Assembly: GCA_014860745.1 (NCBI GenBank)
Contig: JACZJC010000042.1
Coordinates: 1 to 54,586 of the forward strand
From: Anaerolineales bacterium
GTDB taxonomy: Bacteria; Chloroflexota; Anaerolineae; Anaerolineales; Villigracilaceae
Direction of reading: 5' to 3'
DNA length: 54,586 nucleotides
Positions within the stretch are counted from its first letter, which is position 1. Every line of letters starts with the position of its first letter. This document shows positions 12,457-15,336 of the stretch, one piece after another. The notes under the pieces are model-generated. The model worked only from the letters and a program-made list of their open reading frames with translations, did not search any database and was not told the origin of the DNA. A program made the translations under genes and the position numbers.

Positions 12457-12822
12457 TCATTGTTTTTCCATCAGTTCAATTCGATTCCCAAACGGATCAA
12501 AAATATGCGCACGAATGTATCCGTCAAGAGGAGGTTGGGATGTATCGGTTTCATAACCAGCCTTTTGGGTTTTTGAGACAAATCCCATCAAGTCGTCGAC
12601 TATAAAAGTAGGATGTGCCTTGCGTGCGGATCGAAAATCAGTTTCAATGCCTAGGTGTAGCCGCACGGATTCTGATTCAAACCAGACTCCGCCGCGTTTG
12701 ACCAACTCAGCGGGTTTAGGAATTTCGGTAAAGCCCAGCAGGTTAACGTAAAAAGCGCGAGCCTTATCCTCTTCGCCCGTAGGCATCGCAATCTGAATGT
12801 GGTCAATCGATAGGATTTTCAT
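12457..12822 (-). CDS. VOC (glyoxalase/bleomycin resistance) family protein
   Basis: 121 residues from ATG at 12822. The single VOC module begins ILSIDHIQIAMPTGEEDKAR and ends IRAHIFDPFGNRIELME, whose Glu is a usual metal ligand. The His in IDHIQIA is another. This resembles small dioxygenase/glyoxalase-like proteins; the substrate is unknown. Its ATG overlaps the stop of the upstream rhodanese gene by ATGA only if that gene is read through its internal UGA. The two are therefore probably translationally coupled. Confidence 0.88.
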   Translation of the reverse strand: MKILSIDHIQIAMPTGEEDKARAFYVNLLGFTEIPKPAELVKRGGVWFESESVRLHLGIETDFRSARKAHPTFIVDDLMGFVSKTQKAGYETDTSQPPLDGYIRAHIFDPFGNRIELMEKQ

Positions 12823-13286
12823 GGTTCGAGGGGATATCCAGCATCGCTCCAGGCAGCCAGTCCGCCGAGAAGAGCTTCCGCTTTTGTGTATCCGTTTTGC
12901 AGGAGGAGGAACGCCGCACGGGCGCTCGTATGTTCGTTCGGTCAGGTACAGTAGGTGATGATCCACTTGTCTTTTTCGAGTGAAAGGCTGCCAATGTTGG
13001 TCTCGAAATTTTCCAGGGGAATCGAGATCGCTCCGGCGGCGTGGGCCGACTTGTAAGAGTCTGCGCTTCGCACATCCACAAGGATGGCTTGCCCGGAGTC
13101 CAATGCGGCTTTGGCATCTTTCACGCTTATGCGCGGGACTTGATCCTCGGTTTGCGGAGCATTGCCGTTTTGGTTTTGCGGCTGGGTCGGGATGGCAGTG
13201 GGAGTTGCCTGCGGTAAAAATGAGTTGCAGGCGAGGGCGGCAAGTGTAAGAATTGAAAATGCCAGGAGTAGTTTATATTTTTTCAT
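12819..13286 (-). CDS. Rhodanese-like lipoprotein, predicted selenoprotein (UGA = Sec)
   Basis: 155 residues if UGA at 12942-12944 is read as selenocysteine; 114 if it stops there. The N-terminus MKKYKLLLAFS with LAALAC is a lipoprotein signal, then a Pro/Thr/Gln linker, then a rhodanese domain (ISVKDAKAALDSGQAILVDV, SADSYKSAHAAGAISIPL). The stop falls inside the active-site loop, in WIITYCT-U-PNEHTSARAA. Many rhodanese relatives have Cys at this place (CTCPNE). Beyond the UGA the frame continues for 40 codons with a normal end (LLQNGYTKAEALLGGLAAW) and stops overlapping the next ATG. A SECIS-like hairpin follows the UGA. A sequencing error or a true nonsense mutation is the alternative. Confidence 0.82.
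12909..12927 (-). promoter_or_regulatory. Candidate bacterial SECIS hairpin
   Basis: On the minus strand GAGCGCC (12927-12921), loop CGUGC, GGCGUUC (12915-12909): 7 base pairs including one G-U. The apical loop starts 21 nt after the UGA and has G in its second place. Both fit the usual bacterial rules (loop 16-37 nt downstream, G among the first two loop bases). It is coding sequence at the same time, as bacterial SECIS elements are. Confidence 0.7.
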
Positions 13287-13310
13287 CTCTCTCCTTGAAA
13301 GATTTAACCA

Positions 13311-13368
13311 TAGGGACACAGCGAGTTGATCCATGATTTTGACTATAAATTGTTTCGCTGTGTCCCTA
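13311..13368. repeat. 14-bp inverted repeat TAGGGACACAGCGA
   Basis: TAGGGACACAGCGA (13311-13324) and TCGCTGTGTCCCTA (13355-13368) are perfect inverted copies separated by 30 nt. It lies between pepF and the rhodanese gene. It looks like a small palindromic dispersed element; no ORF lies inside. Confidence 0.7.
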
Positions 13369-13384
13369 CTTTTCAGACGCTCTT

Positions 13385-15187
13385 TTACAACTGGCAATAC
13401 CGATCCACACGTTTGCCAATGATGGCGAGGCTGTCGGCCCAGAATTTTTTGGTACGGATGTTGATGCCGAATTTATCAGCCAGGTCGGCTGCGCGGGCTT
13501 CACCGGTGGAGGCGAGCAGTGCCTTGTACGCAGGGACAAAATCCGCGCCGCGTTTTTGGTAGATGGCATACAGGCCGGTAGCGAAGAGCAGGCCGAACGT
13601 GTAGGGATAATTATAGAAGGAGAAGCCGCTGGAATAGTAGTGAGGCTTCCACGTCCACATGAATTTTTGCAGGTACTTTTCATCCAGACCTTCGCCGTAG
13701 GAAGCTTTTTGCGCGCGTTCCATGATGTCGTTGAGGTCGTCGGCTGAAAGTTCGGATTTTGCGCGGCGTTCGAAGACTTCCTTCTCGAAGAGATAGCGGG
13801 AATAAATATCCACAACCACCTGAGAAGCGTTATTCATCTGTGCTTCGAGCACAGCCAGAATTTCCTGCGGATCGGTAACCTGTTCCAACACTGCTTCAGT
13901 GACGATTGTCTCGCACATGATGGAGGCTGTTTCGGCCAGCGTCATGGGTGTAGCTTGCTGTAATTCGGTTTTATTGGCCTGATAGGCACATTCGTTGTGA
14001 AAGGCATGTCCCAGCTCATGTGCCAGCGTGCCAACCTGATCCAGCGAGCCGTCAAAGTTTGCGAGAATGCGGCTTTCCTTTACCCTGGAAACGCCCATGC
14101 AAAATGCGCCGCCGCGCTTGCCTTCGCGCTGTTCGGCATCGATCCAGTTATTGTCGAAGGCGCGTTTGGCAAAGGTGCCAAGTTCAGGCGAGAACTTGTT
14201 GAAGTTGGTGACGATGAAATCGCGGGCTTCGTCCCATGAATAGACTTTATCGGTCCTGCCCATCGGGGCGAAGAGATCCCACCATGCCAGTTTGTCCTTG
14301 CCGATGAGTTTGGCTTTGTGCTTGAAATATTTCTGGAACATCGGGAATGAATCTTCCATCGCGCCGAGCATGGCATCGAGGGTGGCGCGGTCGATGCGGG
14401 CGAAATCGAGCGAGGCGTGGACGGCATCTTCACGTCCGCGTTTTTTATCGAGGATGAGCGTCTCTCCCTTGACCCCGTTCATGCAGGCCGCCAATGGTTC
14501 CTTGACTCCCTCCCAGGCCGCATTCTCCGCTTCGTATCCGCGGCGGCGGGTGGCTTCGTCGGGATGCGAGCGCAGGTTGATGAGGGCTGGCATGGGCATT
14601 TTCTGCGCCTTGCCGTCCAGTTCAAAGTCCACGGTCATTTGCGAGGTCACTGTCCCTTGCAATTTGCCAAAGGCGTTGCCCCCGCTCAAGGTCAGTTCTG
14701 CGGCGAGCACTTCCTCGGCTTCACTCATCAAATATTTGGATTGTTCCACGGCTTCGTTGAGGGCGAATTCATGCACTTTGGCAGAGTCGTTTGTCTTTGC
14801 GGCTTTTTTGACGGCGGCCTTGCCCAACGTCCCCACCCAGGCCTGGAATTTGGTGTTGAGCACGCTGGCCCGCACCGAAATTTGCTCGAACTCCGAGAGG
14901 ATGCGCATGGCCTCCTGGTTGCGGGAGTCGGTGGTAACGAAAGAATAGATGTAGGGTTGGATGGTGCCTGAAAGTTCAAAAAGCGCGTTGAAGCGGTCCA
15001 CCGATTCACCAAGCAGTTTGCCGAGTTTCTTCGGCTCGGTCTTTGAATCCTCCTTGCTGGCTTTCTTGAAGAATACTTCCATTTCATCCAGCGCGGACTT
15101 GTATTTCTTGAGGGCGTTCTTGAATTCCTTTGAATCAAGCGATGGATAGACGTTTGTCATATCCCAGCGGGTTGCGGAAACGGTCAT
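13385..15187 (-). CDS. pepF: Oligoendopeptidase F, M3 family zinc metallopeptidase
   Basis: 600 residues. Cytoplasmic oligopeptide hydrolase. The zinc site HELGH is in TLAHELGHAFHNE (about residue 395), with the third ligand region in MTLAETASIMCETIV. The N-terminal helical part (YPSLDSKEFKNALKKYKSAL) and the C-terminal FYNYPYTFGLLFATGLYAIY are typical of PepF. ATG at 15187 is chosen over an upstream ATG because AGGAG lies 8 nt before it. The product lacks a signal peptide. Length is normal for the family. Confidence 0.93.
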   Translation of the reverse strand: MTVSATRWDMTNVYPSLDSKEFKNALKKYKSALDEMEVFFKKASKEDSKTEPKKLGKLLGESVDRFNALFELSGTIQPYIYSFVTTDSRNQEAMRILSEFEQISVRASVLNTKFQAWVGTLGKAAVKKAAKTNDSAKVHEFALNEAVEQSKYLMSEAEEVLAAELTLSGGNAFGKLQGTVTSQMTVDFELDGKAQKMPMPALINLRSHPDEATRRRGYEAENAAWEGVKEPLAACMNGVKGETLILDKKRGREDAVHASLDFARIDRATLDAMLGAMEDSFPMFQKYFKHKAKLIGKDKLAWWDLFAPMGRTDKVYSWDEARDFIVTNFNKFSPELGTFAKRAFDNNWIDAEQREGKRGGAFCMGVSRVKESRILANFDGSLDQVGTLAHELGHAFHNECAYQANKTELQQATPMTLAETASIMCETIVTEAVLEQVTDPQEILAVLEAQMNNASQVVVDIYSRYLFEKEVFERRAKSELSADDLNDIMERAQKASYGEGLDEKYLQKFMWTWKPHYYSSGFSFYNYPYTFGLLFATGLYAIYQKRGADFVPAYKALLASTGEARAADLADKFGINIRTKKFWADSLAIIGKRVDRYCQL

Positions 15188-15336
15188 GGATGATCTCCTG
15201 GAAAAAAGATGGGGCAAGTATACCGTGAGTTAGTTACGGGCAAAACCTTCCAGGGGAGGGCCTGCTTCATGGAACTTTCGGGTGAACATTTCAGTCTTTT
15301 TTGAGGTACAGTTAATATGACAAACGGAGGTGCTTT

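Follow-up and report, generated by a model that had tools for sequence, protein, structure and literature searches.

Rhodanese domains that contain selenocysteine (Sec, U) have been catalogued before, in an earlier list of rhodanese selenoproteins (PMC9312934) and in a 2026 review which, in the part of its text available to us, sets out five forms (PMC13188914). Form 3, which corresponds to the NCBI family NF041203 (rhodanese_LYCAU), has its Sec at the second residue past the loop Cys (C-x-U), and form 5, TsoB (NF045694), is described as DsbD fusion-like with a U-x-x-x-x-U arrangement (PMC13188914). Proteins consisting of a single rhodanese domain, such as GlpE and PspE, offer a further point of comparison, as does BH2092 (PDB 3nhv, 3o3w), in whose loop (CWGPACNGATKAA) a second Cys lies five residues past the first, without Sec. 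To our knowledge, GlpE and PspE are thiosulfate sulfurtransferases without Sec.

How does a rhodanese gene with an in-frame UGA from the Anaerolineales compare with these systems? The window analysed here spans positions 1 to 54,586 of contig JACZJC010000042.1, from the genome of an uncultured bacterium (hereafter G000; 4.32 Mb in 82 contigs, 98% complete). The gene and its surroundings have the following features.

12457..12822, minus strand: glyoxalase/VOC gene, downstream, with an ATG that overlaps the stop of the rhodanese gene (ATGA)
12819..13286, minus strand: predicted Sec-containing rhodanese gene of 155 codons, with UGA115 as Sec and the stop TGA at 12819-12821 (sequence; translation with TGA as U)
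12843..13127, minus strand: rhodanese domain PF00581 (Pfam; fold)
12909..12927, minus strand: putative bacterial SECIS hairpin GAGCGCC-CGUGC-GGCGUUC (fold -11.1 kcal/mol; comparative evidence)
12942..12944, minus strand: in-frame UGA, predicted Sec115 of C113-T-U115 (sequence; TGA in 80 of 80 kept loci)
13227..13286, minus strand: signal peptide with a lipobox-like end, ALA-C20, and a predicted lipid-anchored Cys20 (sequence and conservation)
13291..13296, minus strand: ribosome-binding site AAGGAG (sequence)
13385..15217, minus strand: M3 oligopeptidase gene (PepF type), upstream; conserved neighbour

The start codon is likely the ATG at 13286, behind AAGGAG. From this Met the frame passes in order through WIITYCT, the UGA and PNEHTSARAA, with 40 codons to the TGA stop when TGA is translated as U; without Sec decoding, the same gene appears as a 151-aa open reading frame at 12942-13397. 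The coordinates and frame given in the initial annotation were thus right, and its placing of the UGA inside the active-site loop, with a normal rhodanese end after it, is confirmed. Its further suggestion of an exported, membrane-anchored product agrees with the lipobox-like pattern ALAC20, in which A19 and C20 are nearly invariant among 30 homologues, and the protein is probably exported and lipid-anchored, as predicted from these features. The structure model places a helix at residues 5-18 of this N-terminal region, with low confidence.

The rhodanese domain is recognised by PF00581 at 53.2 bits (gathering threshold 22.2). An AlphaFold2 model built with 41 sequences has a mean pLDDT of 85.4; ten-residue means are at least 90 from residue 41 and about 50 before it, and a low-confidence linker separates the N-terminal signal from the domain. 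Cys113 follows immediately on the strand formed by residues 108-112 and Sec115 lies two residues further on, within a block that is nearly fixed in the 30 homologues (WIITYCTUxNEHTSARAAF); the YCTU sequence bears out the C-x-U motif first proposed for the active-site loop. The top Foldseek and VIA-align matches are rhodanese-domain structures: 3tp9 (Z 17.3), GlpE (1gmx, aligned over 104 residues, Z 16.0) and BH2092 (Z 15.9), the last also aligning without gaps in the loop at 32-34% identity. The nearest profiles include the GlpE, PspE and MoeB rhodanese domains; this, together with the rhodanese fold and a loop Cys where one is expected, speaks for a selenoprotein variant of a classical sulfurtransferase, in which Cys113 would carry the persulfide, Sec115 would tune or resolve it and the acceptor would be of the cyanide or thiol type. 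The active-site loop, however, exceeds by two residues those of 6mxv and 3tp9, solved rhodaneses with a good sequence match, and the position of Cys113 is itself Sec in the U-x-U relatives described below; we consider this function unlikely.

Among NCBI families, NF041203 is the best-scoring, at 84.3 bits with Cys and 77.4 bits with X at the Sec position, although the protein stays below the curated cut-off of 115 bits (78.4 bits in the genome search), as do all matches in 152 genomes of the same bacterial family. The protein has the C-x-U spacing of NF041203 (PMC13188914) but differs in having a lipobox-like N-terminus in front and the conserved Chloroflexota block given above. Judged by sequence, it is clearly related to form 3, is not a member of NF041203 by the NCBI criterion, and probably works like form 3. 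TsoB likewise has Sec in a rhodanese domain, but the match is weak (26.7 bits against a cut-off of 805) and the window protein, at 155 aa, is predicted to be a single-domain C-x-U protein. The GlpE and PspE profiles, which have cut-offs of 102, score 46.7 and 37.3 bits. As C-x-U rhodaneses are already catalogued and no match in the 152 family genomes passes the NF041203 cut-off, the gene would represent a new branch of a known kind of rhodanese selenoprotein. A brief search of the literature pairing rhodanese or selenoproteins with Chloroflexota or Anaerolineae found neither this Chloroflexota branch nor U-x-U rhodaneses, and Haft and Tolstoy (2025) may describe close relatives. Elsewhere in the same genome, two adjoining open frames of 582 and 583 aa (G000:C77:53239-56454) hold eight rhodanese-domain matches in total, with no stop.

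Could the TGA be a real stop in a pseudogene, or a misread TGC or TGT? The genome is a draft in 82 contigs and its remaining 19 rhodanese matches have no stop, both of which would fit such a reading. The homologues in practice refute it. When the 152 family genomes were searched (146 with a match), each of the best 101 matches had exactly one internal TGA; the 102nd has none, its contig ending before the site, the 103rd has one, and those ranked lower among the matches listed have none. This pattern is far more than chance. A scan over 84,980 species genomes, in which the patterns placed no constraint on codon 115, found 117 relatives, and 80 loci were kept, many of them from the same assemblies as in the family search; TGA stands at codon 115 in all 80 (78 of 78 by motif and the remaining two by eye), and TGC or TGT in none of them. 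Purifying selection acts on the distal codons, since pN/pS is 0.27 after the UGA and 0.30 before it in 30 orthologues. Two marks of bacterial selenoproteins, a UGA conserved in homologues and coding that continues beyond it, are thus present.

The neighbouring genes bear on the same question. The ATG of the downstream VOC gene overlaps the distal rhodanese stop, so that the two genes could be translationally coupled only if the UGA is read through, again at odds with a truncated pseudogene. A VOC homologue was found at 16 of 47 orthologous loci and pepF beside the direct orthologues in 45 of the 47, and acyl-CoA dehydrogenase genes are also syntenic neighbours. Neither this synteny with PepF, VOC and acyl-CoA dehydrogenase genes nor the fusions to Na+/H+ exchangers noted below give a hint of the substrate. 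Given a TGA at every one of the 80 loci, which come from many assemblies, selection past the UGA, the overlapping VOC start and the conserved hairpin considered next, the probability of a pseudogene or sequencing error is negligible.

What would direct Sec insertion at this codon? The bacterial SECIS model, in the part of the source available to us, calls for a loop of 3-9 nt with a G among its first two nucleotides, a stem of 4-16 bp, a spacing of 16-37 nt and an energy of at most -7.5 (PMC13188914). The apical loop of the window hairpin starts 21 nt past the UGA and consists of 5 nt (CGUGC, with G second) on a 7-bp stem, and all of these published constraints hold for it (PMC13188914). Its energy is ordinary (three short stretches give z values of -0.8 to -1.0, and one of 101 nt gives +0.4), and the evidence for a SECIS element is therefore comparative. 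Among 30 orthologues, pS is 0.117 in codons +6 to +11, about sixfold suppressed relative to 0.69 further downstream and 0.72 upstream, and these codons are the ones that form (G)AGCGCC-CGUGC-GGCGUU(C).

Base pairing was counted over 120 distinct sites. As the pattern used to pick them requires U, it is the family search and the free-codon scan that show the TGA to be invariant; two sites (L185 and L186) were excluded beforehand as noise from another reading frame. Pairing at the five core positions is seen in 117, 118, 119, 120 and 120 of the 120 sites; two of these pairs (119 and one of the 120s) are determined by the protein and are uninformative, and for the three free pairs synonymous redraws lead one to expect about 41 of 120. 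For the two outer pairs the counts are no higher than 76 and 89 (48 and 33 on redrawing). The complete 6-bp stem is intact at 73 of the 120 sites, where 500 redraws gave 3.5 on average and never more than 11. Mean hairpin energy has a z of -1.67 against synonymous redraws. Stem variants include AGU...GGCAUU, UCAGCC...GGCUGA, UCCGCU...AGCGGA, AGCGUC...GACGCU and AGCACC...GGUGCG. A covariation set of 63 of the 117 distinct 48-base sites shows two-sided changes in seven of seven pairs (28 cells, against a shuffled mean of 7.2 and 1-7 in slid controls) and a covariation score of 0.259, against 0.140 when shuffled and at most 0.126 when slid; further pair types, one of five covariation measures, number 13, a value reached in 11 of 500 shuffles. 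Since the sequences are related by descent, none of these pairing and covariation counts represent independent events.

The host genome also encodes the machinery that Sec decoding requires. The initial annotation had proposed a search for sel genes, and all are found over cut-off in G000: tRNA-Sec (selC) at 68.5 bits against a cut-off of 47, SelA at 545.9 bits, SelB at 347.3 bits and two SelD at 360.8 and 357.7 bits, the proteins all above curated cut-offs and each selD with one in-frame TGA. In both selD loci (L018 on G000:C41 and L019 on G000:C2) the TGA lies in ACAGU, and the genes would thus encode two Sec-containing selenophosphate synthetases; the predicted fold of L019 has an AGCGC hairpin after the TGA, and L018 folds otherwise. 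Ordinary read-through of the rhodanese UGA, or its reading as another amino acid such as Trp, is very improbable beside this full set of Sec genes and a SECIS-type hairpin with two-sided changes. The window gene and at least three homologues moreover end in TGA, hence TGA serves as a stop too, and Sec two residues after Cys in a rhodanese loop is already on record (PMC13188914).

SelB is over cut-off in 139 of the 152 family genomes. In a sample of the phylum this holds for 32 of 37 genomes listed with a TGA match against 23 of 31 listed without (p 0.23), and, among genomes at least 90% complete, for 24 of 25 against 20 of 27 (p 0.051); these groups were compiled by hand among the matches listed, not all of which were read, with up to nine candidates scored per genome, and two genomes in the TGA-less group of 31 (G361 and G384) have lower-ranking TGA matches. 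Because SelB occurs in so many family genomes and in most of both phylum groups, its presence or absence is uninformative for the rhodanese UGA. Genome G510, 99% complete, has a rhodanese match with TGA (the match itself was not read), yet SelB is not over cut-off there.

The complete Sec genes, the TGA in 80 of 80 loci, the purifying selection past the UGA and the SECIS hairpin with its two-sided changes together lend strong support to the selenoprotein first predicted. We regard the rhodanese gene as almost certainly a genuine selenoprotein gene, and the fuller description of its product as a C-x-U rhodanese selenoprotein as very probably correct.

The window gene has a range of relatives. 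C-x-U forms extend to a further family of the same order and to other parts of the phylum, and a number of genomes carry, as a second C-x-U gene, a paralogue that is about 50% identical; by eye, paralogues L123-L133 have a hydrophobic N-terminal stretch without a lipobox. A C-x-U rhodanese domain also forms the C-terminus of an Na+/H+ exchanger in L263-L268 (six read; Pfam check on L263 and L265), which would give a cation antiporter a tail that contains selenium. At another locus, L114 (G224:C92), a rhodanese has its TGA at a different loop position, YCTGATUGSS, giving C-x-x-x-x-U.

Six genes from six genomes and four families have TGA at the catalytic Cys as well, giving YUTUP or YUAUP (L098, L099, L100, L101, L102 and L105, from G405, G269, G247, G232, G348 and G293). 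The same type of hairpin lies downstream of their paired TGA codons, and five of these six genomes have a SelB that scores over cut-off. On a tree of 104 columns and 154 rows these U-x-U genes occupy three places, a tentative result because the columns are few and L098, L099 and L101 are long branches. It seems somewhat more probable than its converse that the Chloroflexota C-x-U rhodaneses form a dichalcogenide redox family, that Sec has replaced their catalytic Cys on up to three occasions, and that UGA-x-UGA is decoded with one SECIS hairpin.

Other relatives have no stop in the loop. Thirteen with a long loop, all from family f25 (L104, L108, L109, L112, L120, L222-L227, L229 and L235; for example YGDAxRPESGQRGAQI), are without both Cys and Sec and keep the rest of the domain; as they form one clade, this is perhaps a single loss event. 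The long loops of L231 and L257 keep the first Cys and have neither Cys nor Sec at the Sec place, and about 30 further stop-free loci have ordinary short loops. Taken with the U-x-U genes, the f25 loops show a tendency of the Cys and Sec positions to vary jointly, an argument for a working pair, but the f25 relatives are one clade and L231 and L257 keep Cys alone. The initial annotation had stated that many relatives have Cys at the Sec position; among the stop-free relatives read, a sample confined to Chloroflexota (the 13 from f25, L231, L257 and the roughly 30 with short loops), none was judged to have one, and the statement is not confirmed there. Cys does fall in the Sec column of the alignment in three rows of the form "-xC" and in a single "CxC" row (L121), where an ordinary loop Cys is displaced by gaps. 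Nine relatives (L121, L243, L244, L246, L247, L250, L253, L254 and L256) have short loops with an extra Cys two before the loop Cys (CxC-x-[ST]G-x-RS), and we judge from the motif that the second Cys is the catalytic one. The best plasmid match (H1, Pseudanabaena) has the loop CRSGNRS.

A Sec beside a Cys in a rhodanese loop that probably lies outside the membrane suggests a selenenylsulfide pair acting on sulfane sulfur or disulfides. As we envisage it, SelB with Sec-tRNA would decode the UGA under the direction of the downstream hairpin, whose stem has up to 7 bp. The resulting rhodanese would have one domain and a lengthened loop holding the Cys113/Sec115 pair, and would probably be exported and lipid-anchored. 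The Sec115 selenolate and Cys113 would form a reversible selenenylsulfide; outside the membrane, this pair would accept or reduce sulfane sulfur or disulfides, and once oxidised it would be re-reduced by some donor. This persulfide/disulfide redox function of the C-x-U centre is put forward tentatively. Peroxide reduction is a common role of Sec, and an enzyme of that type on a rhodanese scaffold, in which a hydroperoxide would oxidise Sec and Cys113 would resolve it, would suit the probable export and the closeness of Sec to Cys and would need no sulfur substrate. No peroxidase domain appears among the profile matches, however, no partner is seen, and Anaerolineales are mostly anaerobes; a peroxidase appears quite unlikely.

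The standard code ends the protein at the UGA and its score lies under the NCBI cut-off, so genes of this branch are likely to be annotated as truncated rhodaneses or missed. The selenium-dependent rhodanese family is common in Anaerolineales, and Sec is the sole residue at its position in the kept loci, which suggests that selenium is important for function. The U-x-U relatives offer a direct way to ask what is gained from a second selenium, and in what way SelB handles two UGA codons one codon apart.
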